From Pseudomonadota bacterium (GTDB lineage: Bacteria > Myxococcota_A > UBA796 > GCA-2862545), in the NCBI GenBank assembly GCA_023954855.1, contig JAGSGY010000005.1, positions 62,001-126,000 on the forward strand: 64,000 bases of DNA. Reading direction: 5' to 3'. Position 1 is the first letter of the stretch. Every line of letters starts with the position of its first letter. The position numbers and the translations under genes were made by a program. The notes below the pieces were generated by a model. That model was given only the letters and a program-made list of their open reading frames with translations. It searched no databases and was not told the origin of the DNA. Of the stretch, positions 29,972 through 60,457 are shown in pieces.

Positions 29972-32900
29972 ATGGTCCGTTGGCTCGTCCATCACTCCAC
30001 CACCGTGCTGATCGCCGTGATCTGCGTCGTGATCTTCGGCACGCTCAGCTACGTGACGCTTCCCCGTGAGGCGAATCCAGACATCAGCATTCCCCTCGTG
30101 CTGGTGACAACACCGTACGTGGGTGTGTCCCCAGAAGATGTCGAGGGTCTCGTCACGGTCCCCCTCGAGCGTGAGCTCTCGTCCCTTCAAGACGTGAAGA
30201 AGCTCAGCTCAACCTCGGCCGAGGGCGTGAGCATCGTCGCGATCGAGTTCGAGCCCGACGTCATCATCGCCGATGCCGTGCAGAAGGTTCGGGACCGCGT
30301 GTCGCGCGCGAAGTCGACGCTGCCGACCGACGCTGAAGAGCCGTCGATTCGAGAGATCAACTTCTCGGACATGCCGATCATGATGGTGACCATCGCTGGT
30401 CCCGTCGACGAAGAGAAGCTCAAGGAGCTTGCGGAGGACCTTCAAGACAAGGTGATCCGTGTTCCCGGTGTGCTCGAGGCCAAGATTGCCGGTGGGCTGG
30501 ACCGCGAGATCCAGGTCCATGTCGATCCGATTCGTTTGGCCCACTACGGGCTGGCGCTGCACGATGTGACGGGCGCGATTGGCGATGCCAACAGCAACAT
30601 CCCCGGTGGTGAAGTCGTCACCGGCCAAGGCAGTGTGTTGGTGCGGACGCCTTCGGAGCTCACTCTCGGTGAGGAGATTGCTGAGGTTCCGATCAAGCGG
30701 GTGGGGGACCGGCCGGTCTTTGTCCGAGACATCGCGCGTGTGGTCGATGGCTTCTCGACCCGTGCCTCCTACGCTCGCATGAACGGACAGCCCTCGGTGT
30801 CCTTGTCGATCAGCAAGCGGCCTGGTGCTAACATCATCGCGGTCGCGGATGAGGTCAAGGGACTGGTTGCCGGGCAGTCCGAGCGCTGGCCGGAGGGCGT
30901 CGAGTTCAAGATTCTCGCCGACCAGTCCGAGCAGATTCAGGCCTCCGTCGACGAACTTCAGAACAACATCATTACCGCCCTGATCCTCGTTGTGGCCGTC
31001 ATTCTCGGCTTCATGGGACTTCGCAGCTCTGGCTTTGTGGCTGCCGCCATTCCGCTGTCCATGCTCGCCGGCTTCATCGCGCTCGATGCAGTGGGCTTCA
31101 CGCTCAACATGATCGTGTTGTTCAGCCTGATCTTGGCGCTCGGTATGTTGGTCGACAACGCCATCGTGGTGGTCGAAAACATCTATCGCCACATGGAGAT
31201 GGGCAAGGACCGCGTAGAGGCGGCCATCGATGGCACCAATGAGGTCGCCGTCGCCGTCGCGGCCTCGACGGCCACGACCGTGGCAGCGTTTCTGCCCCTC
31301 GTGTTCTGGGGCGGCATCATGGGCGAGTTCATGGGCTTCCTGCCGAAGACCCTGATCATCGTGCTGCTGTCGTCGCTGATCGTGGCGGTGTGTGTGCTGC
31401 CGGTCTTCACATCGACATTCATGAGCGCGAAGAAGACGGGCCGGGACGAAGAGGCCCTCGATGTGGTCGACTTGAGCGCCGTGGGGCCAGTGATGGGCGC
31501 GTACGTGAAGACGCTTGGTGCGGCCATCAGCTTCCGCTATGCGACCGCCGCACTCGGCGTGGCCACCCTGCTGATCACGTTTGTGATCTACGGCTTCTTC
31601 AATCATGGCCTCGAGTTCTTCCCCGACACCGAGCCCAACCGCGCCATCGTGAGTCTTCGCGCTGCCGACGGGACCGACCTCGAGACTACGGACCGCGTCG
31701 TGCGGGAGATCGAAGGTGTGCTGAGCCGAGAGGAGAACATCGATCTCTGGGTGGCCGAGACCGGCGTGTCCGGTGCCTCCGATCCCTTCTCGGGCCGCCA
31801 GACCTCGACCAACGAGGCCAAGATCACCATCGACTTCCTGCCCGACGGGAACAGCGCCGACCCGGGTGAGAAGGTCCGCATCGAGCCGACAACACAGACG
31901 ATCTCCCGCCTACGTGCGAGCCTCGGGGAGTTCCCTGGAGTCACCGTCACCGTCGAGCCTGAAGCCATGGGACCGCCGGTCGGCGAGCCCATCGCCGTCG
32001 AGGTCTCCGGAGATGATTTCCACGAAGTGGGCGCGCTCGCCCAGCTCGTCCGTCGTGAGATGAGCGCCATTCCCGGCGTGACCGACCTCTCCGACAACTA
32101 CCGCGTGGGCCGTCCGGAGCTTCAGCTCCGCATCGATCGTGGTGCTGCAGAGCGGGTGGGTGTGAAGGCCAATCTCATCGGCAACACCGTTCGCACCGCC
32201 GTGGCCGGTGCCAAAGCCAGTGAGATTCGCGATGGAGAGGACCGCTACGACATCGTCGTTCAGCTCGATCCCGTCTACCGTTCCGACATCCAGTCGGTGC
32301 TCGACATTCGCCTTCCAGGTCGCGAGGACACCAGTCCAAGCACGTTCCCCGTGCCGATTTCTGCCGTGGCTTCCTACGAGCTGGCCGCCGGCACTGGAGC
32401 CCTGCAGCACATCGACCAGGACCTGGTCGTGACGATCAAGGGTGACGTGCTCAAGGGCTTCAACGAGAACGAGGTCCGGGCCCAGGTGAGCAAGATGCTC
32501 AAGACCATGGACACGCCTGATGGCTTCCACATGCGGCTCGGCGGTGCCCAAGACGAACAGGCGGAGTCGATGGCCTTCCTAGGGCGCGCCTTCTTCATCG
32601 CCATCGCGCTCATCTTGATGGTGCTCGTCACCCAGTTCGACAGCCTGTGGATGCCCGCCATCATCCTCGCGAGCGTGGTGCTGTCGCTGACCGGGGTGCT
32701 CTGGGGGCTGCTGCTTACGGGTATGCCCTTCGGCGTCATCATGACCGGAATCGGCGTGATCAGCCTGGCGGGTGTGGTCGTCAACAACGCGATTGTGCTG
32801 CTCGACTATGTCCAACAACTCGAAGGGCGAGGTCTCTCTCCACGCGATGCACTGGTTCAGGCCGGACTCGTTCGCTTCCGTCCCGTGATGCTGACTGCCG

Positions 32901-34483
32901 TGACGACTGTCCTCGGGCTCATTCCGATGGCCCTCGGTCTGTCCGTCAACTTCTCGGCGATGGGTCGCCTGGAGTTCCACCGGGTCATTCAGATTGGCGG
33001 TACGAGTGCGCAGATGTGGGGTCCCATGGCGGTGGCCGTGATCTTCGGTCTGTCCTTCGCGACCGTGCTCACCCTCATCATGGTTCCGACGCTGTACGGC
33101 ATCTACGCCGATGTGCGGAAGCTCACCTCGGGCAAGTCCGTGACGCCAGCCGTGGCGGCGACCGTGGCCAAGCTCGCGCCGATTGCCCTGCTTGGATTGG
33201 CGCTCGCGCCCAGCGCGCAGGCCGAAGAGTTCGAGCAGACGGTGACCCTCGAGCAGGCCTGGACTTCGGCCGCGGACAAGCACTACGACCTGGCGATGGT
33301 GCACGAACAGACGATTCAGGCCGAGTCGCTTCGAGGGCAGGCTTGGGCGGCGCTGTCGCCGAAGGTAGTGGCGGGTGCCGCGTACACGGTGAACGAGCTC
33401 GAGATTGCCTTCGACACGGCTGACATGATCCCCGAGCAGTTTCAGGACATGATCGAGCCTTCGGACCCGATGATCATCCAGCCCAAGACAGCGTGGTCTG
33501 GAAACTTGACGGTGGTTCAGCCCCTGTTCTCGGGCAGCGCGTTGCCGGGTCTCAAGGGAGCCTACGGAACCGCAGAGGCCGCTCGCTCTGACGAGGAGCG
33601 GGCGACGCAGCAGATCCGCGCGGGCGTTGCACGCACCTACTATGGGCTGCACACGGCCCGGGCGCGGGTGGACATGGTTCGTGCTTCCCAAGAGCGCGCA
33701 GCCCACCAGCTCGAGCTGGCGACGCGACTTGAAGGGGCCGGCTCCGTTGGCGAGCTGTCGTTGCTGCAGGCCCAGGTCGGCCTCTCGCAGGCCAGCCGTC
33801 AGCTTCGAGATGCGGAAGAAGGTGAGCTGCAGGCGAGGCTCGCATTCGAGCTTGCGACCGGGCTCTCTGGCGATGTGGGCCTCGAGACTCCCGCGGTTGT
33901 GGCGGTGCCAGCCTCGGTGGATGAAGCGGTGGCGATGGCTGCTCAGGAGCGCCCCGACGTGGCCGCGGCTGAGTCGCGGGTACGCGTGGCACGGTTGCAG
34001 CGTGACGGCACCTGGCTCCAGTGGGCCCCGAAAGTCGATGCGTCGTTTTCGTACGTCTACAACGAGGCGACGGGCTTCGCAGACCAGAAGCTGTTCTGGG
34101 TCGCGAAGGTCGAGGGCAACTGGACCCTCTGGGATGGCGGAGCCATCAAGGCCCGAGCGAAGTCTGCGGCATCGCAGGCCCGCGCCGCCGAGTACGCGCG
34201 TCTAAAGGCCGAGCTCGAGGCCGAGCACGATGTGCGGCGCTCGTGGGTTCGCTTCGAGGCTGCGGACCGAGCGCTCGAAGACGTCGCGCGAGAGGTGGCG
34301 CTGGCGGAGAGGTCCCTCGCGTTTGCCGAGCGTAGCCTCACGGCTGGCAGCGCGACTTGGCTCGACGTCGAGCAGGCGCGCACCCAGTTAGATGGCGCTC
34401 TTGTGGCCGAGATGGCGGAGCGCATGGCTCGTGACCTCGCGGCCATCGACTTGCTCGTCGCAACCGGAACCTACGGAAGCTAG
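29972..34483 (+). CDS. RND efflux pump fused to a TolC-like outer-membrane channel
   Basis: 1503 residues in one uninterrupted frame. Residues 1 to ~1050 are a complete RND (ACR_tran) transporter: N-terminal helix 'STTVLIAVICVVIFGTLSYV', porter domains, and the TM4 proton-relay motif 'LGMLVDNAIVVVENIYRHME'. A segment at ~1065-1084 looks exactly like a signal peptide (Lys, hydrophobic core, cleavage site AQA). Residues ~1085-1503 match the outer-membrane efflux family ('TVTLEQAW', 'LSPKVVAGAAYTV', 'ALVAEMAERMARDLAAIDLL') at the full mature size of TolC. Either the polyprotein is cut by signal peptidase after export, or the channel is restarted internally; no ribosome site supports a restart at the GTG codons 33140, 33152 or 33164. 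The stop overlaps the convergent KASIII gene (CTAG). Confidence 0.88.
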   Translation: MVRWLVHHSTTVLIAVICVVIFGTLSYVTLPREANPDISIPLVLVTTPYVGVSPEDVEGLVTVPLERELSSLQDVKKLSSTSAEGVSIVAIEFEPDVIIADAVQKVRDRVSRAKSTLPTDAEEPSIREINFSDMPIMMVTIAGPVDEEKLKELAEDLQDKVIRVPGVLEAKIAGGLDREIQVHVDPIRLAHYGLALHDVTGAIGDANSNIPGGEVVTGQGSVLVRTPSELTLGEEIAEVPIKRVGDRPVFVRDIARVVDGFSTRASYARMNGQPSVSLSISKRPGANIIAVADEVKGLVAGQSERWPEGVEFKILADQSEQIQASVDELQNNIITALILVVAVILGFMGLRSSGFVAAAIPLSMLAGFIALDAVGFTLNMIVLFSLILALGMLVDNAIVVVENIYRHMEMGKDRVEAAIDGTNEVAVAVAASTATTVAAFLPLVFWGGIMGEFMGFLPKTLIIVLLSSLIVAVCVLPVFTSTFMSAKKTGRDEEALDVVDLSAVGPVMGAYVKTLGAAISFRYATAALGVATLLITFVIYGFFNHGLEFFPDTEPNRAIVSLRAADGTDLETTDRVVREIEGVLSREENIDLWVAETGVSGASDPFSGRQTSTNEAKITIDFLPDGNSADPGEKVRIEPTTQTISRLRASLGEFPGVTVTVEPEAMGPPVGEPIAVEVSGDDFHEVGALAQLVRREMSAIPGVTDLSDNYRVGRPELQLRIDRGAAERVGVKANLIGNTVRTAVAGAKASEIRDGEDRYDIVVQLDPVYRSDIQSVLDIRLPGREDTSPSTFPVPISAVASYELAAGTGALQHIDQDLVVTIKGDVLKGFNENEVRAQVSKMLKTMDTPDGFHMRLGGAQDEQAESMAFLGRAFFIAIALILMVLVTQFDSLWMPAIILASVVLSLTGVLWGLLLTGMPFGVIMTGIGVISLAGVVVNNAIVLLDYVQQLEGRGLSPRDALVQAGLVRFRPVMLTAVTTVLGLIPMALGLSVNFSAMGRLEFHRVIQIGGTSAQMWGPMAVAVIFGLSFATVLTLIMVPTLYGIYADVRKLTSGKSVTPAVAATVAKLAPIALLGLALAPSAQAEEFEQTVTLEQAWTSAADKHYDLAMVHEQTIQAESLRGQAWAALSPKVVAGAAYTVNELEIAFDTADMIPEQFQDMIEPSDPMIIQPKTAWSGNLTVVQPLFSGSALPGLKGAYGTAEAARSDEERATQQIRAGVARTYYGLHTARARVDMVRASQERAAHQLELATRLEGAGSVGELSLLQAQVGLSQASRQLRDAEEGELQARLAFELATGLSGDVGLETPAVVAVPASVDEAVAMAAQERPDVAAAESRVRVARLQRDGTWLQWAPKVDASFSYVYNEATGFADQKLFWVAKVEGNWTLWDGGAIKARAKSAASQARAAEYARLKAELEAEHDVRRSWVRFEAADRALEDVAREVALAERSLAFAERSLTAGSATWLDVEQARTQLDGALVAEMAERMARDLAAIDLLVATGTYGS

Positions 34484-35547
34484 GGCCAGCGGATCAGCAT
34501 GGCGGCCTGGGTAAAGCCTGCGCCTGGGGAGTAGACCAGCACCCAGTCGCCAGACTTCACCCGGCCACTGATCACGCCGAGGTGGAGGTTCAAGCCGACG
34601 CTGGCGGCCATCAGGTGGCCGTACTTCGCGAACTGCTCTTCATGCGGGAGGACCCGCTCGCCCGGAATGGCGAGCGCGTCCGCAAACGCGCTCCCGAACC
34701 AGGCTGTAGTGTGGGGAACGGCCAGAAATCCGATGTCTACGCCATCGAGTCCGTGGCGTGCCAGCAGAGGCTCGCAGACCTCGCGACACCGGGTCACGGC
34801 TTGAGCGGCCATCGTGTGCGTGGCCTCGTGGTCGTGATGCCGAGCGAGCAGCGGCTGTTGGTGACGGTCTCCGCGGTACCAAGGCGTAGAGACAGGGTCC
34901 GGAGCCAGCACGATGCCGCCGTGCAGCTCGCCACGTGTGAGCACTTCCGTGTCGACGAGCCCGCGATGTGGGGGCGTCGGGCCGACCAGGGCGGCTACGG
35001 CGCCGTCACCGAGGAAAGGGGCGGACGGCGCGCCCTCGTCGAGGATGCGGGACATTGCCGAGCTCGCGACGACGATGGCGTTTCGGTACGCGCCGCTCTG
35101 AATCAGCCGGGATGCGGTGGCCGCCCCGGTCACAAAGCTTGCGCAGCCCGTGTCGAGGGTCATGGCCGTGACGGTCGGCGGGAGGCCAAGCTTGTGCGCG
35201 ACCAGGCCGTGGTTGAGTGGCGACGGAAAGTCGGGCACCTGGGATGACACGATGAGCAGATCGACCGGCTCGTCGCCGAGGACCTGCCGCGCGGCGAGCG
35301 CCTCCATGTCCGAGGAGGCGTGGTGCTCCGCCATCACCCGGCGCTCGCGAGCTCCACGAAACAAGTCGCTGGTGAATCGGGCGCTGTGCCGGGCGACTTC
35401 GATGTCGACGGTCGACGTCACATCGAGCTGCGTGATGACGTCGTCGTGCACGCGCCCCGCATGCGCCTTTGCCCACTCAGCGCCCCAGAAGTCGTTGGTA
35501 CGAACCTGGGAGGGCAGATGGGCGCCGAGTCGGAGAATGCCGGTCAC
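34480..35547 (-). CDS. 3-oxoacyl-ACP synthase III (KASIII/FabH)-like protein, atypical active site
   Basis: 355 residues of thiolase fold. The nucleophile Cys is in 'MTLDTGCASFVTGAA' and the first catalytic His in 'AVPHTTAWFGSAF' (HQAN position). At the usual Asn of 'YGNTSAAS' the sequence reads 'KYGHLMAASVG', so Asn is replaced by His. That change, and the lower overall similarity to FabH, argue for a secondary-metabolism condensing enzyme or acyltransferase rather than housekeeping FabH. The GTG start overlaps the stop of the ThDP enzyme gene (GTGA), implying the two act on the same substrate line. Confidence 0.82.
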   Translation of the reverse strand: MTGILRLGAHLPSQVRTNDFWGAEWAKAHAGRVHDDVITQLDVTSTVDIEVARHSARFTSDLFRGARERRVMAEHHASSDMEALAARQVLGDEPVDLLIVSSQVPDFPSPLNHGLVAHKLGLPPTVTAMTLDTGCASFVTGAATASRLIQSGAYRNAIVVASSAMSRILDEGAPSAPFLGDGAVAALVGPTPPHRGLVDTEVLTRGELHGGIVLAPDPVSTPWYRGDRHQQPLLARHHDHEATHTMAAQAVTRCREVCEPLLARHGLDGVDIGFLAVPHTTAWFGSAFADALAIPGERVLPHEEQFAKYGHLMAASVGLNLHLGVISGRVKSGDWVLVYSPGAGFTQAAMLIRWP

Positions 35548-37226
35548 GAAGCCCGCATCGACTGAATCTGCTGAATGCGAGGGCTCGCCACGGTCTCCCG
35601 CGACACGGGGAACGCGAGCAGGAGCGGACCGTCCTGTCCGTCTCGTAGGACCCGGGCGAGGTGGCGGGCATCGCTGACGCGGTGCGCGCGCACACCGAGG
35701 GCTCGAGCCATGGCGACCAGGTCGACCTTGGGGAGCTCGGCGACCTCACAACGGCCGAACAGCGCGTTCATGCCGTCATCGACCATGCCGAGATGGCCAT
35801 CCTCGAACACGGCGAAGGTGACGGCGAGGCCTTCGCGAGCACACGTTGCGAGCTCGGTGCCGCACATCATCATGCCGCCGTCGCCGCAGATACTGACGAC
35901 TCGTCTTCCCGGCTGGCTCATGGCAATGCCCATGGCCGAGCCGATTCCCGAGGTCATCCCGGCGAGTCCGTGCGAGACAAAGAACTGGTCGGGGCCATCG
36001 ACCACGAGGTGTTGTGCGGCGGCAAGCAGGTGGTTTCCGATGTCGGAGGTGAAGGCAGCGTCGCGGCAGTGGCGCTGGAGGGCCTGCACAACCGCGCCGG
36101 GCTCGTGTGGGGCCAGGTCGAGAGGCTGTGGAAGGCCACGGGCCGGAAGCGACCGATTGGCCAGGTCGCGCTGGATGAGAAGGTGGGCTGCCGGCGAGCC
36201 CGCCGCGCGAGAGAGCTCGTCCAGGACGGCACCCAAGTCGCTGGAGAGAAGCTGGACGCCGGGGTGGCGGCTCAAGCGCGCCAGTGAGTGATCGATGTGG
36301 GCCGTGTACGCCCGCGCCCCGCGAAGCTGCTTGACCGAGCCCGCGGTGGTGGGGTCGAGGCGCGCTCCGACGGTCAAGATCAGATCCGCCTGGTCGAGGG
36401 CTGCGTTGGCGCGTCCGTCTGAGCCAGGGCCGACGAGACCGGCCGAGAGGGGGTGCCGTTCGGGGAAGAGACCCTTGGCTTCGACGTCAGTGATGACGGT
36501 CGCGCGATGGAGCTCGGCGAAGGCCAGCACGGGCATGGAACAGGCGGCTGCGCGTGCGCCGACGCCCAACCAGAGTACGGGGCGCTGGCTTCTGGACAGC
36601 GCGTCGGCGACCTCGTTCAGCTGCAGAGGGACGGTCGTCGGCGTCGCGATGCTGGCGGGTGCCGGCGTCGCGGCCGGACGCTCGAGAAGGTCCACGGGGA
36701 GGGCGAGCAGCACTGCGCCGCGGGGGTGGGATTCGGCGGCGTTCAGAGCCTCTTCGAGCATCTGGGGCACGTCATCTGCCGTCTCGGCGCGCGCGACGTG
36801 CTTGCACAGCGATCCGAACACACCGAGAACGTTGAGCCCTTCTTCACGGCCATCCTGGAGGACGCCCATGCCTTGGTGGTCGGTAGCGACCTCACCGGCG
36901 AGAATGAGCAGCGGCACTTCGTCCTCGGTTGCTGCCGCCGCCGCCGTCGTCAAGTTGAGCAGTCCAGGTCCCGAGGTCACGGCGACGGCTCCGGTCACGC
37001 CGCGTGCGTGCGCGTAGCCGAGGGCTTGGTAGCCGGCCATGCCTTCGTGCAGGCTGGTGACGACGCGGATGGCGTGGTCCTGGGCGCCGTCAAACACGGG
37101 CGAGATGGTGCCGCCGGGAATGCCGAAGAGCGTGTCCACTCCGGCCGTTGCGAGGCGCGCCAGGAGTCGATCTGTGGAACGAGTGAGAGCCGCGGCAGAG
37201 GCCGCCGGAAGAGCTGTGTGCGACAT
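35544..37226 (-). CDS. ThDP-dependent enzyme of the acetolactate synthase superfamily
   Basis: 560 residues. The Pyr domain has the catalytic Glu in 'TSLHEGMAGYQALGYAHA', and the PP domain has the ThDP/Mg motif 'CGDGGMMMCGTELATCAREG' followed by 'FAVFED'. The central domain ('RPVLWLGVGARAAACSMPVL') is of the transhydrogenase-like kind common to AHAS, pyruvate oxidase and 2-hydroxyacyl-CoA lyases. Expected chemistry is decarboxylation of a 2-oxo acid or carboligation giving an acyloin. It is not the ilvB of branched-chain synthesis by context: no ilvH or ilvC follows, but a KASIII-like enzyme does. There is no strong ribosome site before its ATG. Confidence 0.85.
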   Translation of the reverse strand: MSHTALPAASAAALTRSTDRLLARLATAGVDTLFGIPGGTISPVFDGAQDHAIRVVTSLHEGMAGYQALGYAHARGVTGAVAVTSGPGLLNLTTAAAAATEDEVPLLILAGEVATDHQGMGVLQDGREEGLNVLGVFGSLCKHVARAETADDVPQMLEEALNAAESHPRGAVLLALPVDLLERPAATPAPASIATPTTVPLQLNEVADALSRSQRPVLWLGVGARAAACSMPVLAFAELHRATVITDVEAKGLFPERHPLSAGLVGPGSDGRANAALDQADLILTVGARLDPTTAGSVKQLRGARAYTAHIDHSLARLSRHPGVQLLSSDLGAVLDELSRAAGSPAAHLLIQRDLANRSLPARGLPQPLDLAPHEPGAVVQALQRHCRDAAFTSDIGNHLLAAAQHLVVDGPDQFFVSHGLAGMTSGIGSAMGIAMSQPGRRVVSICGDGGMMMCGTELATCAREGLAVTFAVFEDGHLGMVDDGMNALFGRCEVAELPKVDLVAMARALGVRAHRVSDARHLARVLRDGQDGPLLLAFPVSRETVASPRIQQIQSMRAS

Positions 37227-37293: not shown

Positions 37294-40200
37294 CTATGCG
37301 CTGTCTTCCCGCGAAGTGGCTACAGGCGGGCCCACGCGCTCTTGAAGGAGCTTTGCGAGCTCTCCGAGCCCGAAGGGGAAAGCGAGATTGCCCTGCTCGA
37401 GTGGCGAGCCGCGTGGCACGACCAAAGCGACGTTTCCACCAACGGGAAGTCCCGGCTCCGCCACGGTGAGCACCGGGTCGAGGTTTCCGACCGCATAGCC
37501 GAGCCCGCGAATGGCGCGCTCGAGGGCTTCGGTGACGAGCGGGTTCGAGTGGCGCACGCCAACACGTGGAACCTCGGCCTGGACCCGTGCAGGAGGGAGC
37601 TCGATGACGAAGCGCCGCGTACCAAGGGAGGGTCCGATGGCCAGCTCACCGTTGAGTGCCTCGACGGCTTGACGCACTCCAGTGAGTCCGAGGGGGGTGC
37701 TCTGGCTCGCGCCGCCGGCGGCAATGTCGATGACGGTGCGGGTCGCGTCCCCCACACGGCGCGTCGCCATCCGGAGCCTGACCTCGCCCGTGGTCTGATC
37801 ACGGACTGCCATCGCAGCGAGCAGCACCACGCTGGTGGCCGCATCGTCGAGTCGAGTGAGCTCGGACACGTCGATGGTGATGGCACGGGGGGCCATCAGT
37901 TCCCGGAGGGAGCTCAAGATCGGGTGCAGCGCTTCGGTGTCGCTCAGGCGCGTCTTCGAGGGCACGCCTCGTAGGGCGATGACGCGACTCTCACCCTGCT
38001 CGATAAGGTGGGGCTCGTCGGTAAGGGTGCCCAGCCTGAGCTCGGCGGCGGCGAGCAGGTGCGTCTCTCCGTAGGCCTGCTGGTCAACGAGGTCGGCGAG
38101 AACGGCCCTCGCCGTTGCCGCGTCTCCGGCGCAGGTGGCCCGCTCGGCTTCGAGAAGCCGAGACGCCGCGAGGGCACGCGGACTCTTGCCTCCCACCTTT
38201 GCCAGGCTTTGGATGCAGGTGCGCGCCAACGCCAGGTCGGGTGGAGTCGCCGCAAGGGCGACGCGCCCCAAGGCGAGGTGCACGACCTGCGCGATCTCAA
38301 GTCCGGAGCCCAGGGACGGGAGCGAGTCTTGAATCGTCTCGAGAGCCAGAGCCGCGTCGCTCGGCGAGCCCGCTTCGAGCAGAGCGAGTGCCAAGTAGCC
38401 TCTGCCAAGCACGGCATCGAGGGTGCTCGCGTCGAGGCCGTCCAGGCGTCGCCGAATGGAGGCGCTGCGGTCGGTGATGTCGTGACCGGCGCGCGCGTCG
38501 ATCAGGAGCTCGAGAGCGGCAATACTTGGGCGGACGAGCTGGTTGCCCTGGGTCCTTGCGGCGTCGTCGGCGAGGACGAGCCAACGCCGAAGCGTGGGGT
38601 CAGGCTCCCTGTGAAGTCCGTAGTCCGCCTTTAGCAGCAGCGAGATGGTCCCGTGGGTCATGTCGCCGGCCTGGCCGAACGCATCGACGGCCGCACTCAG
38701 GGTCCGCTGGCCTGCCTCGTACTCTCCGTAGGCGAGCTCGATCTGTCCGCGGATGTGGGCCACCGTCCCGAGGGTGAGGGGAGAGCCGCACTGCTCCGCT
38801 GCTTCGTCGGCCTTGGCGAGCGAAGCATCCGCACGCTCCCGAAACGACAAGGTGGAGAGGAACATCGCGGTAAACGCATTTGCCGAGGCCCCTGCGTGGG
38901 TAGGCAGGTCCCATGCCAGGCGACGCGCCCGCCAGATCGAGAGGGCGAGCAGGCTTGGCTGGGAGGCCGCGGCCAACGGGATCATGAGCGCGTAAACCGC
39001 GGCGATGCCGTCTCGGACTGCGGGCAGCTCCTTGCGGCGGCGAACAAGCGTGAAGAGCAGGGCGAAGAGCTGAACCGCACTCGACGTCGGAATCCACTCG
39101 CCGGCTCTGCTGAGGGCTCGTCGACCGAGCTGAAGAGCCGCGTCCGAGGCATTCCGGCGGTAGAAGCCGTACATGGCCTCGCGTGCAATGGTCAACGCCT
39201 GGTCGGGAGACGCCTCGTCGACCAGCTGAAGGTACGCCGCCTTCGCATCGGACAGCTGGCCGGTGAGAAGGTCGACGTGAGCCAGGTGGCGGCGCGCTCG
39301 GCTCGACTGCGCCTGTCCGGGCGCCCGCTCGAGCGCACACTCGAGATGCCAGCGTGCCACGTCGAGATCGTAGGTGGAGAGGGCCTGGCGCGCAGCGTCG
39401 AGGTGCTCTTCAGCGAGGGGAGCCGACACGCCGCTCGGAGTGCCGAACTCACGGTGGCGGACCACCTGGCAGAGGGTGGTTCCTCCCGTGCGTGCCAACC
39501 AGCGGGCGATGGCTTGGTGGAGGTCGCGGCCTTCGGCGCGGTCCATGCTGTGGACGACGCTCTCTGCGGCGGTGGCATGTGCAATCTGAAGCGTGCGGCC
39601 ACCATCCGAGCGAGCGAGGCCCGTGGCAGCCAACGTGGCGATCAAATCGAGCGTGGCGGGGGTGGTCTCGCCGAGCACTAGCGCGAGATCTGTGGCATCC
39701 CATGGCTCGGGGTGGATGGCCGCCACGTAGAGTGCCGACCGCGCCGTGGGGCCCAGCGCGCTGATACGCCGGGCTTGCAGGTCGACAAGAGCCGAGGCGG
39801 AGGCGGCTTCTGGGCTCCAGATCTCGCCGGTGTCGGTGAGGTGGCGGAGCCAGGTCCACAAGTGAAGCGGTCGCCCGCCCACCTGGTCGATGAGGCGCTG
39901 GGCGAGGTGGGGAAGACACGCGGCTTCGGGCACGCTCGCTTCGATCAACTCGGCCACAGCGTCGGCATCGAGTCCCGGAATCGCCATGTGCGAGAGCGCG
40001 ATGGTGGAGTCCACTGCGTCGGCGTCTCGTGCGGTCGCCACCATCACGAGGCGTCGGTCCTTCAAGTCAAGGGCGCGGATCTCTGCGAGTACGGCTTGCG
40101 TGCCGGGGCCGAGCTGGTCGGCATCGTCGATGCAGAGAACGCCGGTGCCGCGGGCGGTGAGGAGCTCGAGGACAGACTCGGCGAGCACCCTGCAGTAGCG

Positions 40201-41187
40201 ACGGTGACGCCCATCGACGTCAAGATCAATGGCTTCGGGCGGGCCCGGTGCGGTCGGGTCCTCGAGCCAGTCCGGAGACATGCCGGGCATTGCGGAGAGC
40301 CTGGCGCGTACTTGCTTGAGTACGGCGTCGTCGTCGGGGCCGACGGTCGAAGCGGCTGCCCAGAGCAGCACGGGACCGTCTGCGCGTGTGTCGGCCCGCA
40401 TGAAGGCGACCCGCATGCCGCGGTGAGACAGCCGCTTGGCGAGCTCGCGTAACGTGCGCGTCTTGCCGATTCCCGCGGGGCCGGACAGCACGACCGACGA
40501 GGCAGCGGCCGTCGTGAGCCGGGTCTCGAGTCGACCTACCAAGCTCGCTATGCCGACCAAGGGTGGCGACTCCGGCCACCGGGCACGCTGGTGGATGCCG
40601 GCGTGGGCGCGAGCCATGTCGCGCACGTCGTCGTGGGCATCGCAGAGCGGACTGAAACGCTCGCGGTCGAGGGCTCGCAGCTGGCGCTTGAGGGCATCGA
40701 TGCCGAGTGGCTCTTCGAGCAGTGCCTTTAGGGAGACCAAGCGGGGTCGGCCGCGATCCAGGACGATCTCGGAAGAGTGCAGCCCCGTTCCAAGGCCAAG
40801 CCGCTGTGCGGCAGCGGTCGCGTGAAGGAGTGCGGTTCCAAGGCGCATCGGGTCACGCGGAGTCTGTGCTCCCGTAAACGGCCGCCGAACGACCAGAAGG
40901 CGGTGCTCGTCGACGAGAACCTCGAGAGGTGCGCCGTCGAGGGGAACCTCTTTGCGGAGGGCCTCGGCGCTCGCTGCGGCCGCGCCGCTGACGATGAGCT
41001 CGGCAAACACGCTGCGTCGGGTCAACAGGTCGGTGGCGCGAAAGCCGCATGCGCCAACTCCAGTGCTGACGGGCGTCCCCGATACCAAATAGCGGCGCGC
41101 AATCTCGGCACCCAAGATCACGCCGCTCGGCAACGGGAGCGTGAGCTGCCCCTGCCGTCCAGACGATGACTTCGAGAGCCGGTTCAT
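37294..41187 (-). CDS. Degenerate multi-module signalling protein (pseudokinase-AAA-TPR-pseudo histidine kinase-pseudo receiver)
   Basis: 1297 residues; AAGGA precedes the ATG. Residues ~31-165 follow the Ser/Thr kinase pattern but the catalytic residues are lost: 'STGVGACGFRATDLLTRRS' for the glycine loop, Glu63 where the ATP Lys should be, 'LHSSEIVLDRG' for HRDLKPxN and 'SLKA' for DFG. An intact AAA-type ATPase follows: P-loop 'GPAGIGKT' (236-243), Walker B 'LCIDDAD' (351-357). Residues ~600-1030 are TPR-like. Residues 1081-1207 resemble an HATPase ('TSVVLLAAMAVRDQ', 'GLTGVRQAVEALNGELAIG') without the N-box Asn. The last 90 residues look like a receiver ('RVGVRHSNPLVTEALERAI') lacking the acidic pair and phospho-Asp. 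It probably works as an ATP-switchable scaffold. Confidence 0.8.
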   Translation of the reverse strand: MNRLSKSSSGRQGQLTLPLPSGVILGAEIARRYLVSGTPVSTGVGACGFRATDLLTRRSVFAELIVSGAAAASAEALRKEVPLDGAPLEVLVDEHRLLVVRRPFTGAQTPRDPMRLGTALLHATAAAQRLGLGTGLHSSEIVLDRGRPRLVSLKALLEEPLGIDALKRQLRALDRERFSPLCDAHDDVRDMARAHAGIHQRARWPESPPLVGIASLVGRLETRLTTAAASSVVLSGPAGIGKTRTLRELAKRLSHRGMRVAFMRADTRADGPVLLWAAASTVGPDDDAVLKQVRARLSAMPGMSPDWLEDPTAPGPPEAIDLDVDGRHRRYCRVLAESVLELLTARGTGVLCIDDADQLGPGTQAVLAEIRALDLKDRRLVMVATARDADAVDSTIALSHMAIPGLDADAVAELIEASVPEAACLPHLAQRLIDQVGGRPLHLWTWLRHLTDTGEIWSPEAASASALVDLQARRISALGPTARSALYVAAIHPEPWDATDLALVLGETTPATLDLIATLAATGLARSDGGRTLQIAHATAAESVVHSMDRAEGRDLHQAIARWLARTGGTTLCQVVRHREFGTPSGVSAPLAEEHLDAARQALSTYDLDVARWHLECALERAPGQAQSSRARRHLAHVDLLTGQLSDAKAAYLQLVDEASPDQALTIAREAMYGFYRRNASDAALQLGRRALSRAGEWIPTSSAVQLFALLFTLVRRRKELPAVRDGIAAVYALMIPLAAASQPSLLALSIWRARRLAWDLPTHAGASANAFTAMFLSTLSFRERADASLAKADEAAEQCGSPLTLGTVAHIRGQIELAYGEYEAGQRTLSAAVDAFGQAGDMTHGTISLLLKADYGLHREPDPTLRRWLVLADDAARTQGNQLVRPSIAALELLIDARAGHDITDRSASIRRRLDGLDASTLDAVLGRGYLALALLEAGSPSDAALALETIQDSLPSLGSGLEIAQVVHLALGRVALAATPPDLALARTCIQSLAKVGGKSPRALAASRLLEAERATCAGDAATARAVLADLVDQQAYGETHLLAAAELRLGTLTDEPHLIEQGESRVIALRGVPSKTRLSDTEALHPILSSLRELMAPRAITIDVSELTRLDDAATSVVLLAAMAVRDQTTGEVRLRMATRRVGDATRTVIDIAAGGASQSTPLGLTGVRQAVEALNGELAIGPSLGTRRFVIELPPARVQAEVPRVGVRHSNPLVTEALERAIRGLGYAVGNLDPVLTVAEPGLPVGGNVALVVPRGSPLEQGNLAFPFGLGELAKLLQERVGPPVATSREDSA

Positions 41188-43036: not shown

Positions 43037-43795
43037 CTACTCGGGGCACCGGAACAAGCGTCGAGCGTTTCTGGCGCTCTGTTCGAGAAGGTCGTGAGGG
43101 TCGTCGTCGCGGAGGTCGGCGATGAAGCAGGCCACGTCGACTAGACTGTCCAGCGGACCCTGGTCTGGCGCGTCTGTCTCGAACAACAGCTGGTCCGCGG
43201 GCACGCGAAGGGCCGCGCGTTGGGTTCGCTCGCTGCGAAGCACAGCGGGACCGAAGGAGATGTGCAGCCCCAGACCGACTGCTCGATCCGCGAGCTCGGG
43301 GGACCCGGTAAAGGCGTGGAGTACGCCAGCCATGCCGGTGGGCAGGGCGTCGAGCACCGTTCCCCACGCCCGCACACCATGGAGAATGAGCGGCACGCCG
43401 TGCTTCTGGGCCATCTCAATCTGAGCGTGAAAGGCGCGCAGCTGGAGTCGCCTCGAGCGTGGGGCCTTCGCACGCGCCCAGTCCAGGCCGGTCTCGCCGA
43501 GTCCGTGTGGTGTCAAGGTCTCGGTGAGCTGTGCGAGTAGAGCGTCTTGGGCCTCCTCGTCGAGCTCTCCAGCCCACCATGGGTGCAGGCCGAGCTGGGG
43601 AAGCGCCCCGACGCGACGGCAGACTGAGAGGACTCTCTGCCAGTGTGCGGGGTCGGATGCCGAGACTGCCCATCCAAAGATGCCCCGCGATCGCGCCTGC
43701 TCCAGCGCGTCGGCCAACGCGGCGGGGTCGAGGTGGTCGAGGTGTGAGTGGGCGTCGAAGGCCCCCGTCGCTCCGGTTGTGTATTCTCCGGCCAT
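43037..43795 (-). CDS. TatD-family metal-dependent hydrolase/nuclease
   Basis: 252 residues. TIM-barrel metal ligands are present in order: 'FDAHSHLDHL' (His16, His18), 'LGETGLDW' (Glu), 'ILHGVRAW' (His), 'VLHAFTGSPE' (His) and 'FETDAPDQG' (Asp). TatD proteins are Mg-dependent 3'-5' exonucleases involved in DNA repair; the family also includes deacylases. The start ATG is formed by the reverse complement of CAT at 43793-43795 and shares two bases with the start codon of the divergent FHA gene, so there is no intergenic promoter. AidB-like flavoprotein gene downstream suggests a DNA-damage-linked pair, by inference. Confidence 0.9.
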   Translation of the reverse strand: MAGEYTTGATGAFDAHSHLDHLDPAALADALEQARSRGIFGWAVSASDPAHWQRVLSVCRRVGALPQLGLHPWWAGELDEEAQDALLAQLTETLTPHGLGETGLDWARAKAPRSRRLQLRAFHAQIEMAQKHGVPLILHGVRAWGTVLDALPTGMAGVLHAFTGSPELADRAVGLGLHISFGPAVLRSERTQRAALRVPADQLLFETDAPDQGPLDSLVDVACFIADLRDDDPHDLLEQSARNARRLFRCPE

Positions 43796-44699
43796 GGCCA
43801 CTCTGAAGAACCTTCTGTCGGGCGAGGTTCGCCCCATTCCTGCTCGTCTTGTCGTCGGCCGCGCGCCTGGCAGCTCGCTGCGACTCGATGATCACCGCGT
43901 CTCGGGCCAGCATGCCACGATCGTATGGACGGGCGGTGCCTGGGAGGTTCGCGACCTCGGAAGTCGCAACGGCACCTTCGTGAACGGAAAGCGTCTCGAT
44001 CCGGGCAAGTCGCTCGCCTTGGCGGCGGGCCACAAGCTGGCGTTCGGGGTGGCCGATGAGGGGTGGGAGCTGGTCGAGCTTGGACCGCCAAGTGCGCTCG
44101 CGGAGCACGTCGAGTCAGGCAAGGTGCGCACGGCACGCGACGGTATCCTCGCATTGCCCGATGAAGCTGAGCCTGTGGCCGAGGTGTTTGCCCGTGGCCG
44201 GGAGTGGCGCCTAGAGATGAACGGCGAAGCACGAATCGTGCGAGATGGCGAGGTGTTGACCCTCAACGGTGAGGCCTGGCGCGTACGGGTGCCCGAGGCC
44301 GTCGAGGGCACAGTCGCCGTCGATTCGGGCCCTTCGCTGCAGACCGTGCGCATGCGCTTTGCTGTGTCCCGGGACGAGGAGCACGTTCAAGTGACGCTGC
44401 TACATCGCGGTCAGGAGATTGCGCTGGAGCCCCGAGAGCACGGCTACACGCTTCTCACGCTTGCTCGCGCCCGCGTCGAGGACAAGGAGCTCGCGACGGC
44501 GGAACAGGGCTGGATCGACCGAGACCGCCTGCTCAAGATGCTCGGCGTAGATGCCAACTCTCTGAACGTGTCGATTTACCGGGCCAGGGGCCAGCTTGCC
44601 GCCGGAGGACTCGACGGTGCAGCGGGAATCGTGGAGGTCCGGCGAGGGGCTCGACGCATCGGAATGGAGCCAGAACGCATCGAGATCGTGCCGCTCTAG
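43794..44699 (+). CDS. FHA-domain protein with C-terminal winged-helix-like region
   Basis: 301 residues. The N-terminal FHA domain is clear: 'LVVGRAPGSSLRLDDHRVSG' (GR...S..H) with 'DLGSRNGTFVNGKRL', the phosphothreonine-binding fold. Residues ~100-200 are beta-rich and unassigned. The last ~90 residues ('LTLARARVEDKELATAEQGW', 'LGVDANSLNVSIYRARGQLA') resemble the winged helix of response-regulator effector domains, so it may bind DNA when phospho-recruited. It would read Thr phosphorylation made by a kinase such as the one encoded at 56826-60386. The start overlaps the tatD start by two bases (CCATGG). Confidence 0.85.
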   Translation: MATLKNLLSGEVRPIPARLVVGRAPGSSLRLDDHRVSGQHATIVWTGGAWEVRDLGSRNGTFVNGKRLDPGKSLALAAGHKLAFGVADEGWELVELGPPSALAEHVESGKVRTARDGILALPDEAEPVAEVFARGREWRLEMNGEARIVRDGEVLTLNGEAWRVRVPEAVEGTVAVDSGPSLQTVRMRFAVSRDEEHVQVTLLHRGQEIALEPREHGYTLLTLARARVEDKELATAEQGWIDRDRLLKMLGVDANSLNVSIYRARGQLAAGGLDGAAGIVEVRRGARRIGMEPERIEIVPL

Positions 44700-56825: not shown

Positions 56826-59800
56826 CTAGGCCTCGGGTTCGGGTTCGCCGAGAAGGAGCCAGGCCCGCTTCGCTGCGGCCGCTACGGGTCGGCGTTCCGT
56901 GGTGGGGTCTTGGGTGGCGGCGGCGAGAGCGGCGGCAGAGAGCAGCCATGCGACGACCAAATCCCCCTGTGGCCGTAGCAGGCCGCGCTCCTGGGCGATG
57001 AGGTCGAAGCGCTCCCAGGATTTCGCGTGACTCGCGTGCAGCAGTTGGATGGTGAGGGTCGCTCCGATTCGCGCATCGTGCTCTAGACCGGCGAGGGCTC
57101 CGCGAAGCTGGCGCGCGACCTGGCAGGCAGCGGCGAGATCTCCGTGGGCGACCAGGCACCAGACGAGCATCGCCCGAGCTTCACCCGCGGCAGGGTCTCC
57201 GAGCGACTCGAGCCTGGAGACGGCGTCGGTAAGGTGGAGTACCGCGCCTTCCGGTTCGCCGATGCGTGCGCCGATACGTCCGAGCGCGAAGCGGCACATC
57301 GCGACACCCTGGGAGAGCCCGAGGCGGTCGTTGTAGGCGAGGGCTTGTTCGTACAGCCCCGCGGCGAAGGCCATGGCTCCTCGAGCTTCCTCGTGTGCCC
57401 CCATCCGTCTCCAGACCCGCGCGGCTTCTTGGGGGTCTCCGGCAGCCTCGAGAAGTTCAACGGCCTGTCGAAGTCCCTTGGCAGCGGCGTCTGCCCGTCC
57501 GAGGCGGCGGTCGACCTCTGCAAGGCCAGCCGTGGCGAGGCCCACGTGGCGTGGTGCAGCAGAGGCGAGCGCGAGCTGCTTGAGGGTCTCGAAGTGCACG
57601 CGCGCGGTCTCGACCTGGCCGAGGTCGAGGTTGAGCAGACCCTGCTGGTGCAGGGCGTAGCGCTCAGACCCGCGCCACCCGTGTGTTTTGGCGCGGGAGC
57701 CGGCCTCTTGGGCGAACTCGAGGGCCCGAGCGAATTCGCCGAGCTCGCGGTGAATGCGCGACCGATACACCAGCACCGGTCCCCAGCGCTTGTCGTTGCC
57801 GGGCACGCCCGCACCGGCCAGCGCGGTCTCGATCTTGTCGACCAGCGCGAGGGCGGGCTTGGGACCCGAGCTCATCAGTCTAATCTCGACTGCTCCAAGC
57901 AGCGGCTCGACGGCCTGGTCGATCTGCCCGGCCTCGAGCAGGTGGGTGCCGAGTCGTTCGGCCGGGCTCAGCTGCTTGGAGGGGGCTCTGGCCCAGAGCA
58001 TCATCGCGCATGCGAGGTTCTGGGCCTGCCATCGTTGGCCCTGCCGGCTCGACTGCCACAGCGCCTCGCGAAGCATGCTGTGGGCGAAGGACCAGTGCTC
58101 GACGGTGCCGGTGGCCAGCGATTCTGCGAACAGCCGCTCGACGAGGGCGCTCCGCAGCGCGCTGTCGCCGGGAAAGCGCGCGCCGAAGAAGCCCTGTGGG
58201 TCATCACAGGCTTGGCGCCACTCGTCGCGATGCACCTCGGGACCGAGAATGCTGGCGACCTCGAGATAGGCGCGTGCCTCGTCCTTGAACTCGGCGAGCA
58301 CCCGGTCGATGCGGTTGGCCCACACCTCGCTGAGCGAGGAGGGAAGGGCGGCGCTCGCTCCGGCCTGCAGCCGGTAGCCGTGGGGTCCGGGCTCGAGAAT
58401 GCCGCGACGAACCCAGTCGCCGACAAGGTTCACTGCGAAGAGGGGGTTGCCGGCGGTGCGCTCTTCGACCTGTGCGGCCAGCGCGTCGTCCAAGCCGAGC
58501 AGGCCGCGGACGAGGTCGCGCCGCTCAGCGCTGTCGAGGGGCTTGAGCGCGATCTGGCGCACAGGGCTCATCGACTGGAGCCGGGCGAGGCCGTCGGTCT
58601 CCTCGGCGCGGCCGGCCAGTCCCTCATCGCGAAGGGTGAGCAAGATCAGCACAGGGAAAGGGGACTCGGCCTGCGTGCGCAGGATGTGGCGTGCGAGAGA
58701 GAGTCCGTGCGCGCCCCAGTGCACATCGTCGAGCCAGAGAATCATCGGGCGCTGGGTCGCCATCCAGGCGGTCGTGCTTCGCGTCACCGAGTAGAAGTGG
58801 CTAGGCCGGGTGAGGCGGCGGGGTCGGGCGCCGCGCTCGAGGTCGCCCTTGGTGGCGGGCTGCAGGATCTCGGTGAGGACCTGGACCTCTTCTTCGTCGT
58901 CGTTACCGTGAGCGCTCAGGAAGGCGCGCACGCGCTTCTCGACGGACTCACGCGGCAGCCGGGCACTGCGGAGTTGTTCGACCCCCATACGCCGGATCGA
59001 CTCGCCGCCGTCGATGTTGGGGGAGAAGCGAGCGGTGGCAAAGCGGGCGGCTCCGGTCTCGTGGGCACGCTGGCAGGCCCACTCGACAAGGCGTGACTTG
59101 CCGGCTCCGGCGGGTCCGCGAATGACGATGGCCTCGGCGCGACGGCCTTGCTCGACGCGCTGCAGCGCTTCCCAGATCTGGTCGCGCTCTTCGTGGCGGC
59201 CGACCAGCGGCACGGCACGAAGACCGTACAGGGACCTACCGGCTCCAATCAGCTTCGGTGGAGGTGCGGCCGGCATCGGACGCCGCCACACGGGTGGCAC
59301 CCGAGGGCCTCGAGGGCGGATGAGCCGGGCCCCTTTGGACGGACTTCGCGCCTCGGCTGGCGGGGCGAACTCGGTGCTCCACGTATCGGAGATCGGGGGT
59401 GGGGTGGGGGACTCGAGCAGTGCCAATCGCCAGGACTCGCCAAAGCAGGTGCGGTCGTCGAGGGTGTTGCGCAGGGTGTCCGACACGTCGTGGTCGAGCC
59501 CCGAGAAAGGCGCGAAGTCGCCGGTGATGTCCGCGTCGAGGGCGAGCAGTTCCCTGGCGGCGTCGGCAGCGCACTGAAAGCGGGCGTTGCGGTCCTTTGC
59601 CATCAGCCGCGACAACCAGCTTCCGAAGCCCTCGGGTAGACGGTGCTTTGGCACGAAGGGCCGAGGTTCACTGTGCATCTGCGCCATCATCAGCGCGTGG
59701 CCGGGTCGCTTTTCGTAGGGGCCTTCGCCGGTGCAGAGCAGGTAGGTCATGCAGCCGAGCGAGTACAGGTCCGTCCACGGGCCGTAGTCGCGCCACTCAC

Positions 59801-60386: not shown

Positions 60387-60457
60387 CGCCCGGAGTGTAG
60401 TGCAGGCGATTGCGGGTGCGGACCGATGCGAAAGTGCCCCGGCCCGCTGCTCTGTTC

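Follow-up and report, generated by a model that had tools for sequence, protein, structure and literature searches.

The window, a 64,000-nucleotide stretch of DNA, carries on its minus strand a gene (REG) whose 1297-residue product is, by its motifs, a STAND-type ATPase with a complete motif set and predicted activity, flanked by degenerate Ser/Thr kinase, histidine-kinase ATPase (HATPase) and receiver modules. To judge from its sequence and those of nine homologues, REG looks like a reused regulator maintained by selection and not like a decaying gene. The uninterrupted frame reported in a sequence-only reading, which did not give the strand, was found again, with an ATG start and zero internal stops; GC content by codon position (0.74/0.53/0.79) was like that of neighbouring genes, which indicates a real coding frame. 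When REG was searched with Pfam kinase, HATPase, receiver and AAA_16 models, only AAA_16 exceeded its curated cut-off. The three dead modules thus lie below Pfam detection, so that profile or structure evidence was required for each. REG has no output domain and no DNA-binding domain. The features are as follows.

37294..41187, minus strand: REG, complete frame for a STAND-type ATPase with degenerate kinase, HATPase and receiver modules on either side; nine homologues
40588..41130, minus strand: truncated pseudo-Ser/Thr kinase, residues ~20-200, with N-lobe, alpha-E, and catalytic-loop and DFG equivalents; C-lobe mostly gone
40990..41013, minus strand: beta-3 strand equivalent, residues 59-66, including Glu63; catalytic Lys absent
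40723..40791, minus strand: catalytic-loop equivalent GTGLHSSEI (133-141) and DFG equivalent SLK (152-154); both motifs lost
39748..40575, minus strand: STAND-type nucleotide-binding module, residues ~205-480, Pfam AAA_16 (PF13191, 48.1 bits, cut-off 32.6)
40459..40482, minus strand: Walker A, GPAGIGKT (236-243), fitting GxxxxGK[ST]
40123..40140, minus strand: Walker B, VLCIDD, a hydrophobic stretch then Asp, ending in Asp354-Asp355
39865..39879, minus strand: GxP motif GGRPL (Gly438, Pro440), characteristic of helical domains in STAND proteins; invariant (10/10)
38038..39510, minus strand: TPR-like helical middle region, residues ~560-1050, putative sensor; weak TPR matches in homologues
37588..37935, minus strand: pseudo-HATPase, residues ~1085-1200; no DHp, N-box Asn replaced by Ala, ATP lid missing
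37333..37572, minus strand: shortened pseudo-receiver, residues ~1206-1285; acidic pair replaced by His-Ser, Lys of KPF lost

The nucleotide-binding core and the degenerate modules around it

The AAA_16 match covers residues 219-373 and was also found in a whole-genome search. The P-loop and Walker B had been called perfect, which is true of REG but not of the whole family: P-loop Lys242 is kept in nine of ten members, the homologue in genome G011 having Arg. Asp354 is invariant (10/10) and is part of DD in four members and of DN in the six Nannocystaceae copies. The winged-helix (WHD-type) His537, within QIAHATAAES, is present in REG and the six Nannocystaceae copies and not in those of G013, G008 and G011. 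In the TPR-like region, where many of the family-invariant residues fall, TPR matches were weak and came from homologues, not from REG itself.

Before residue 150, REG has Lys only at positions 6 and 79; because there is none between residues 7 and 78, loss of the beta-3 Lys is independent of alignment, Glu63 being the best-aligned substitute. HRD aligned with G-T-G (133-135) and DFG with S-L-K (152-154), and the beta-3 Lys, HRD Asp and DFG Asp are all three missing. The beta-3 Lys is missing from all nine family members that possess a kinase domain, and no homologue retains both Asp residues. Pfam PF00069 did not match REG at E<=0.1 or the homologues at E<=1. Comparison by hhalign of nine family N-termini with seven live myxobacterial Ser/Thr kinases nevertheless gave 93% probability (E=3.5e-7), where an unrelated control reached 0.2%, and in a PDB profile search 34 of 37 matches to the REG N-terminus fell on kinases or on folds resembling them (best real E=7e-4). 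The AlphaFold (AF2) model of residues 1-212 is of low confidence (pLDDT 50) and was used as supporting evidence only; the N-lobe order of strands and helices is visible in it, and nearly all of the 50 Foldseek matches listed were kinase or kinase-like, albeit weak (TM ~0.3). The module ends soon after the DFG position, leaving ~50 residues before the AAA module versus >100 in a full C-lobe. On these profile comparisons, homology to protein kinases is clear from the N-lobe through DFG.

For the HATPase region, all seven PDB profile matches were histidine-kinase ATPase domains (best E=0.0096). The AlphaFold model of residues 1065-1297 had a pLDDT of 76, and its top Foldseek match was full-length ShkA (4.5e-8), followed by PhoQ, DesK and RetS; profile and structure matches thus agree on an HATPase fold. 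The N-box Asn is replaced by Ala in REG and by Ala, Ser, Thr or Cys across the family (10/10). REG had no HisKA match and no stretch of DHp length between the TPR and HATPase regions that could hold a phosphoacceptor His. A Pfam STAS_2 assignment for residues 1086-1145 (E=0.0013, below cut-off) was rejected, since no homologue shows STAS_2 and both profile and structure searches returned histidine-kinase ATPase domains.

In the receiver, V-R-H-S stands in place of the V-V-D-D acidic pair, Phe in place of the K-P-F Lys ('AFPF'), and Glu at the phosphoacceptor position. Among the family members compared, the first acidic residue is His in 9/9 and the Lys is lost in 9/9. The domain is shortened in REG and was modelled as a short alpha/beta unit; its best profile match, the KdpE receiver, was weak (E=0.48). 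By its residues, the C-terminal domain is a pseudo-receiver as defined in PMC12632262. The earlier description of a dead Ser/Thr kinase, a dead histidine kinase and a dead receiver is therefore upheld, with weak sequence support for the last. That the folds are retained, as also proposed, is borne out only in part: most of the kinase C-lobe is missing, DHp is absent and the receiver is cut down.

Family, ancestry and selection

Nine homologues, 22-26% identical to REG, were found in two separate Myxococcota families and include proteins of Plesiocystis pacifica and Enhygromyxa salina; among scans of genome contigs, one with the single protein returned none and an alignment-based one succeeded. 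The same degenerate design recurs in all ten proteins. In every member that could be tested, the beta-3 Lys of the kinase, the N-box Asn of the HATPase and both the acidic pair and the Lys of the receiver are gone, so that these losses go back to the family's ancestor, and the family has since been maintained. The idea that three activities were lost in concert in REG is thus not supported as it was put. One E. salina SWB005 copy is entirely without the kinase module. A PADLOC Mads match of one homologue (E=7e-5), which would have suggested phage defence, was restricted to the AAA region and was rejected.

The homologue alignment with dN/dS that the sequence-only reading called for could be made for the closest homologue pair, the sole pair near enough for measurement and one that does not include REG. 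The ratio came to 0.25 over the full length and to 0.17-0.18 for the dead domains taken separately, indicating that purifying selection acts on these modules in that pair. Two clades were distinguished: clade A, the enzyme-linked Nannocystaceae copies, and clade B, three copies without the enzyme link. The dead modules of clade A evolve faster than the ATPase, implying looser constraint on them there; composition bias, by limiting synonymous change, makes dN/dS of clade A pairs unusable for testing selection. Backbone support was low in the trees meant for comparing REG with the ThDP enzyme.

Could REG be a large pseudogene whose catalytic residues have drifted and whose frame is open by chance, stops being rare at 67% GC? 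All phosphotransfer residues are lost, REG has a branch among the longest of the tree and is shortened in its kinase, AAA and receiver regions, the same-genus genome G001 has no REG, and there is no close relative, so that dN/dS on its own branch is unmeasurable. Against this, the open frame extends for 3.9 kb with neighbour-like codon-position GC, the shared degenerate state is accompanied by invariance of Walker and GxP residues and of many positions within the TPR-like region, the closest pair is under purifying selection, and the gene neighbourhood is conserved. We consider non-functional decay very improbable, in line with the original view that REG is selected.

Linked enzymes, a dedicated histidine kinase and possible functions

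Two features not mentioned in the sequence-only reading are the most informative of the REG family: its linkage to ThDP and KASIII-like enzymes, encoded directly downstream in the window, and a dedicated live histidine kinase accompanying the Nannocystaceae homologues. The downstream genes, probably translationally coupled given their overlap, are:

35544..37226, minus strand: ThDP (TPP)-dependent acetolactate-synthase-like enzyme (Pfam TPP_enzyme N/M/C), 67 bp downstream of REG
34480..35547, minus strand: KASIII-like enzyme, overlapping the TPP gene by 4 bp; His replaces the FabH Asn

One REG copy adjoins a ThDP acyloin-type synthase, a KASIII-like enzyme or both in 7/7 genomes (the window genome, G008, G011, G013, P. 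pacifica, E. salina SWB005 and G280), in gene orders that are codirectional in some and convergent in others. ThDP orthologues at E<1e-100 were confined to genomes with REG (4/60 in the order, 3/29 in Nannocystaceae). The CybE-type enzymes BbmA and CsmA are no nearer to the window ThDP enzyme than acetolactate synthases are. For P. pacifica and E. salina, a CybE homologue has been proposed in connection with deoxyenhygrolides, and we considered whether the linked enzyme is that protein. In G279 (SWB005) and G280 (probably SWB007), the ThDP enzymes associated with REG are very close by branch length, whereas CybE of SWB005 and SWB007 are given as 57% identical (PMC8777810); these are therefore probably different genes.

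A small histidine kinase gene is directly upstream of all six Nannocystaceae REG copies, 3 to ~130 bp away, and its product has the invariant His, N-box and G-boxes, with motifs intact. Elsewhere in 15 genomes there was none except for one marginal match. Such a kinase is absent from the window genome, G008, G011 and G013 (4/7 genomes), and the clade B copies keep it despite lacking the enzyme link. The clade B copy of P. pacifica has a gene for a live-looking response regulator converging on it.

We propose that REG works as a STAND switch or hub in which the kinase, HATPase and receiver modules serve as docking or sensing domains, and that it controls the enzyme locus and, in Nannocystaceae, the kinase in trans; we hold the chances of this to be about even. 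Its ancestor would have been a myxobacterial protein of the type Ser/Thr kinase-AAA_16-TPR-hybrid histidine kinase, phosphotransfer having been lost before the family diversified and the dead modules having been kept for docking or sensing. The TPR region may bind a signal or partner, and binding would open the nucleotide-binding domain (ADP to ATP), upon which REG might oligomerise as do MalT-like STAND proteins. The dead terminal modules could then recruit or inhibit partners, which would be the cognate histidine kinase in genomes that have it and, in the others, a different kinase or the biosynthetic enzymes. In this way the supply of an acyloin-derived metabolite would be regulated. In favour of the proposal are the degenerate plan shared by ten members, the STAND hallmarks, the coupling to the enzymes and to the cognate kinase, the purifying selection in the closest pair, and the precedents of MalT, PH0952, DivL and ShkA. 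Against it stand the lack of an output or DNA-binding domain, the four genomes that have no such kinase, the three unlinked clade B copies, the P-loop Arg of G011 and the looser constraint on the clade A dead modules.

Two rival functions were also weighed. REG might be an enzyme scaffold that binds the ThDP and KASIII-like enzymes and channels or gates an unstable acyloin intermediate outside two-component pathways. Adjacency of one or both enzymes in all seven genomes with varied gene orders, the large TPR surface, the lack of a DNA-binding output and the absence of a cognate kinase in the window's own family are consistent with this. On the other hand, E. salina has REG relocated beside KASIII with the ThDP gene left at its ancestral place, KASIII of G013 is on another contig, and clade B, with its kinase and no enzyme link, points to signalling; a scaffold thus seems unlikely. 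Alternatively, the STAND oligomer might activate or inhibit the live histidine kinase, whose response regulator would switch the biosynthetic locus; docking would then fall to the surface of the dead HATPase-receiver tail, by analogy with DivL and its partners DivK and CckA. This two-component transcriptional control agrees with the exclusive placement of the motif-intact kinase beside Nannocystaceae copies and with the convergent response regulator in P. pacifica, but the kinase is missing from the window genome among others, and it is gene order alone that suggests a REG-kinase interaction. We regard such control as possible, if doubtful.

A broader version of our switch proposal, which we put forward only speculatively and think distinctly doubtful, is a metabolite-gated circuit in which a STAND switch with three dead docking arms controls a live histidine kinase in trans, a signal-making ThDP-KASIII pair, or both. 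If true, this would be a kind of circuit not described before, with synthase and sensor in a single genetic unit that would resemble synthase-receptor quorum-sensing loci in its logic though not in its parts. In bacteria, pseudokinases, pseudo-histidine kinases and pseudo-receivers are already known one by one; the REG family, itself conserved, brings the three together about a nucleotide switch. How pseudo-receivers switch is a stated open question (PMC12632262). The one-to-one live kinase partner in the culturable P. pacifica and E. salina, together with the linked small-molecule pathway, makes a compact testable system and a handle on how signalling domains get reused after loss of catalysis. 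Dead modules of this type, being invisible to Pfam, are likely under-counted.

Comparison with known systems

A ThDP acyloin-condensing enzyme with a KASIII-like partner, as encoded downstream of REG, is found in NzsH/NzsJ (CqsB3/CqsB1; carbazoles, PMC7466098) and CybE/CybF (furanolides, PMC12395478, PMC8777810); the portions of these reports available to us mention no STAND regulator. Similar to REG in overall design are live proteins of the same genome, including L078 (Pkinase-AAA_16-GAF-HisKA-HATPase) and the product of 56826-60467 in the window (Pkinase-AAA_16-TPR), and these bear out the original assignment of REG to the Ser/Thr kinase-AAA-TPR-histidine kinase-receiver hybrids. L078, L081 and the 56826-60467 protein share with REG kinase homology and the order kinase, AAA_16, TPR and histidine-kinase parts. 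Unlike REG, they have every catalytic motif intact; REG has no GAF and no phosphoacceptor domain, and ends in a pseudo-receiver.

Dead histidine kinases and receivers that act as sensors or docking sites are exemplified by DivL (PMC5361649) and Caulobacter ShkA (PMC7010744). DivL reuses a histidine-kinase fold as a non-catalytic sensor or docking module controlling CckA (PMC5361649), much as REG in Nannocystaceae has a live kinase alongside it. DivL keeps the region around its lost His (Tyr there) and has PAS sensors, whereas REG has no DHp and a STAND/TPR core (PMC5361649). The ShkA pseudo-receiver, which lacks phosphotransfer chemistry and follows an HATPase (PMC7010744), has its counterpart in the putative receiver fold of REG, and ShkA was the top structural match of the REG C-terminal half. 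Unlike REG, ShkA has a second receiver and a kinase core that is still live; it binds c-di-GMP (PMC7010744), and REG has no known ligand.

The mechanistic precedent for a STAND switch comes from MalT of E. coli and PH0952 (PMC4381067, PMC6468293). These proteins and PknK of Mycobacterium tuberculosis have in common with REG an AAA-type nucleotide-binding domain with Walker A/B, GxP and the winged-helix His, and also a helical-repeat sensor, putative in REG, with effector modules at the protein ends (PMC4381067, PMC6468293). PknK resembles REG further in having a kinase joined to the STAND core. REG differs in having a truncated, dead kinase at its N-terminus and, at its C-terminus, a dead HATPase and receiver in the place of a DNA-binding domain.

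REG, its family and its dead modules

REG (37294-41187, minus strand) opens with ATG and runs for 1297 residues without an internal stop, while the plus-strand frame tried across the same interval was not open and held several stops. GC at its three codon positions was 0.74/0.53/0.79, with similar values in all five modules and in neighbouring genes; the uninterrupted frame reported earlier thus held. The AAA_16-type ATPase was the sole domain detected with Pfam and NCBIfam, the other modules being recognised through homologues. A protein search of relatives gave full-length homologues in three genomes of the same family (G013, G008 and G011), and alignment-based searches contributed two copies each from Plesiocystis pacifica SIR-1, Enhygromyxa salina SWB005 and their congener G280. 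REG is thus a family of ten proteins, the other nine being 22-26% identical to the window protein, and it formed a supported clade in a tree with three live proteins, the window copy having a long branch. Of 63 genomes in the window's order, 4 carried a member, as did 3 of 29 in the Nannocystaceae-type family; a wider phylum sample added no genus.

When nine REG N-termini were combined into a profile, its alignment to live myxobacterial Ser/Thr kinases ran from the N-lobe up to and including DFG (hhalign 93%, E=3.5e-7), as against 0.2% for a histidine kinase control. Kinases or kinase-like proteins made up 34 of 37 PDB profile matches; RecA matches were discounted as sums of trivial repeats. 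The AF2 model was weak (pLDDT 50), but its elements followed the order kinase N-lobe, alpha-E, beta-7/8, and nearly all Foldseek matches listed were kinases or kinase-like. No Lys occurs between residues 7 and 78 of the window protein, nor at the beta-3 position of any member; the second P. pacifica copy alone keeps the HRD Asp, and G011 alone the DFG Asp. Little of the C-lobe remains, since the stretch from the DFG position to the ATPase spans only about 50 residues. One E. salina SWB005 copy lacks the kinase module.

The C-terminal profile matched histidine kinase ATPase domains in 7/7 PDB matches and live cognate histidine kinases at 63% with the G2 region aligned, compared with 0.1% for a Ser/Thr kinase control. 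Its AF2 model (pLDDT 76) gave full-length ShkA as top Foldseek match (4.5e-8), followed by PhoQ, DesK and RetS. The DHp domain is absent from the C-terminus, the ATP lid is missing, and none of the ten members keeps the N-box Asn, which is replaced by Ala, Ser, Thr or Cys. The receiver part, weakly supported from sequence alone, retains the terminal P-F and helix; in 9/9, His stands at the first acidic position and the Lys of KPF is gone. The sequence-only reading was accurate on motifs (lost beta-3 Lys, N-box Asn and receiver acidic residue; Walker A and B present), whereas its claim of retained folds is only partly borne out, with most of the kinase C-lobe gone, no DHp and a shortened receiver.

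Linked enzymes and neighbouring genes

35544-37226, minus strand: ThDP enzyme, next after REG, 67 bp gap
34480-35547, minus strand: KASIII-like enzyme, start/stop overlap with the ThDP gene

One REG copy adjoins the ThDP enzyme and/or KASIII in 7/7 genomes. All three genes are in line in the window (REG, ThDP, KASIII). Both enzyme genes converge on REG in G011 and G008 (in G008 across two contigs, the REG end being repeated at the start of the enzyme-bearing one), as does ThDP in G013, where KASIII lies elsewhere. ThDP adjoins REG or sits a few genes off in P. pacifica and G280; in E. salina SWB005 KASIII follows REG, and ThDP stays in the region syntenic with those two. ThDP matches below 1e-100 were confined to REG genomes (4/60 of the order, 3/29 of the Nannocystaceae-type family), and KASIII matches at about 1e-60 or better to five of the seven. 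By our own arithmetic, which ignores relatedness, coincidence in the same four of 60 genomes has a probability of 2e-6, or 2e-4 within the family of 20.

The pair resembles the acyloin-type ThDP/KASIII pairs NzsH/NzsJ and CybE/CybF (PMC7466098, PMC12395478), but the window ThDP enzyme is no nearer to CybE-type structures than to acetolactate synthases. KASIII-like enzymes of the window and of loci L014, L027 and L059 keep the catalytic Cys and have His for the FabH Asn (YGH for YGN), and those of G011 and E. salina additionally have Gln for the active-site His, changes that suggest acyl transfer or other non-FabH chemistry. More distant ThDP and KASIII-like pairs occur without REG in other Myxococcota (loci L097, L099, L100, L056); the pair thus has a wider distribution than the regulator. 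At three loci of the Plesiocystis/Enhygromyxa genus (L073, L077, L103) the neighbourhood of the ThDP gene includes, in conserved order, a beta-ketoacyl synthase and an alpha-oxoamine-synthase-like gene.

All six Nannocystaceae copies have, 3 to about 130 bp upstream, a small histidine kinase for which no sensor domain is listed; its His, N-box and G-boxes are intact in 6/6. Its N-terminal profile found exactly these six sites among 15 genomes, plus one marginal match (2e-4), and none in the window genome, G013, G008 or G011. A live-looking response regulator convergent with the second P. pacifica copy (L072:7908-8807, plus strand) is possibly that kinase's downstream partner. Two further neighbours lie in the window:

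43524-44699, plus strand: FHA-domain protein (phosphothreonine reader), divergent, upstream of REG; an FHA-like protein also precedes Nannocystaceae clade B copies
29972-34483, plus strand: 1503-residue single ORF, RND efflux transporter (ACR_tran, residues 2-1043) plus TolC-type outer-membrane factor (OEP), with signal-like stretch APIALLGLALAPSAQA between; either an unusual inner/outer-membrane fusion or a gene pair left unseparated

Origin, selection and likely function

56826-60467, minus strand: intact Ser/Thr kinase-AAA_16-TPR protein of about 1190-1213 residues, some 16 kb away from REG, with its kinase motifs live

This protein is a live architectural relative of REG within the window. 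It is one of the intact proteins of similar order in the window genome (Pkinase-AAA_16-GAF-HisKA-HATPase and Pkinase-AAA_16-TPR), and the best matches outside the family were Pkinase-AAA_16-GAF-SpoIIE proteins; descent from such an intact Pkinase-AAA_16 hybrid is the simplest inference.

Decay of the gene seems very improbable. Between the second copies of E. salina and G280 (80% identity), the only close pair in the family and one that does not include the window gene, NG86 dN/dS was 0.17 for the dead kinase, 0.18 for the dead HATPase and 0.25 overall, likely upper bounds because synonymous change is probably underestimated at high GC3. This favours the earlier proposal of selection, but in that genus's enzyme-linked copies divergence is faster in the dead modules than in the ATPase. 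That REG is an enzyme scaffold would suit its linkage to ThDP and KASIII; clade B copies are not so linked, and we consider this unlikely. Somewhat more credible, if still doubtful, is control of the live histidine kinase as REG's main output, a sharper form of the STAND-switch idea; the kinase beside all six Nannocystaceae copies speaks for it, and the lack of such a kinase in the window genome, G013, G008 and G011 speaks against it. On the observed anatomy, catalytic losses, conservation and linkage we favour, as roughly an even call, a STAND switch with the dead modules as docking or sensing arms. A nucleotide switch at the core would respond to a ligand and oligomerise, and the dead kinase, HATPase and receiver modules would dock partners, targets among them, or sense. 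The fossil of a single gene gives way to ten proteins with shared losses, better described as a conserved family of STAND regulators that carry several pseudoenzyme modules and are tied to a small biosynthetic locus.

The window protein has both Walker motifs (A and B), a winged-helix His and the STAND GxP motif; the Walker B Asp and the Gly and Pro of GxP do not vary across the ten members, and G011 has Arg at the Walker A Lys position. By these motifs the ATPase and middle region are predicted to be of the STAND design of MalT and PH0952, where ADP/ATP-dependent oligomerisation is governed by a repeat sensor (PMC4381067, PMC6468293); the Ser/Thr kinase PknK is also counted among STAND proteins (PMC4381067). 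Reuse of dead signalling modules does occur, as shown by DivL, a pseudo-histidine kinase controlling CckA (PMC5361649), and by the ligand-binding pseudo-receiver of ShkA (PMC7010744).
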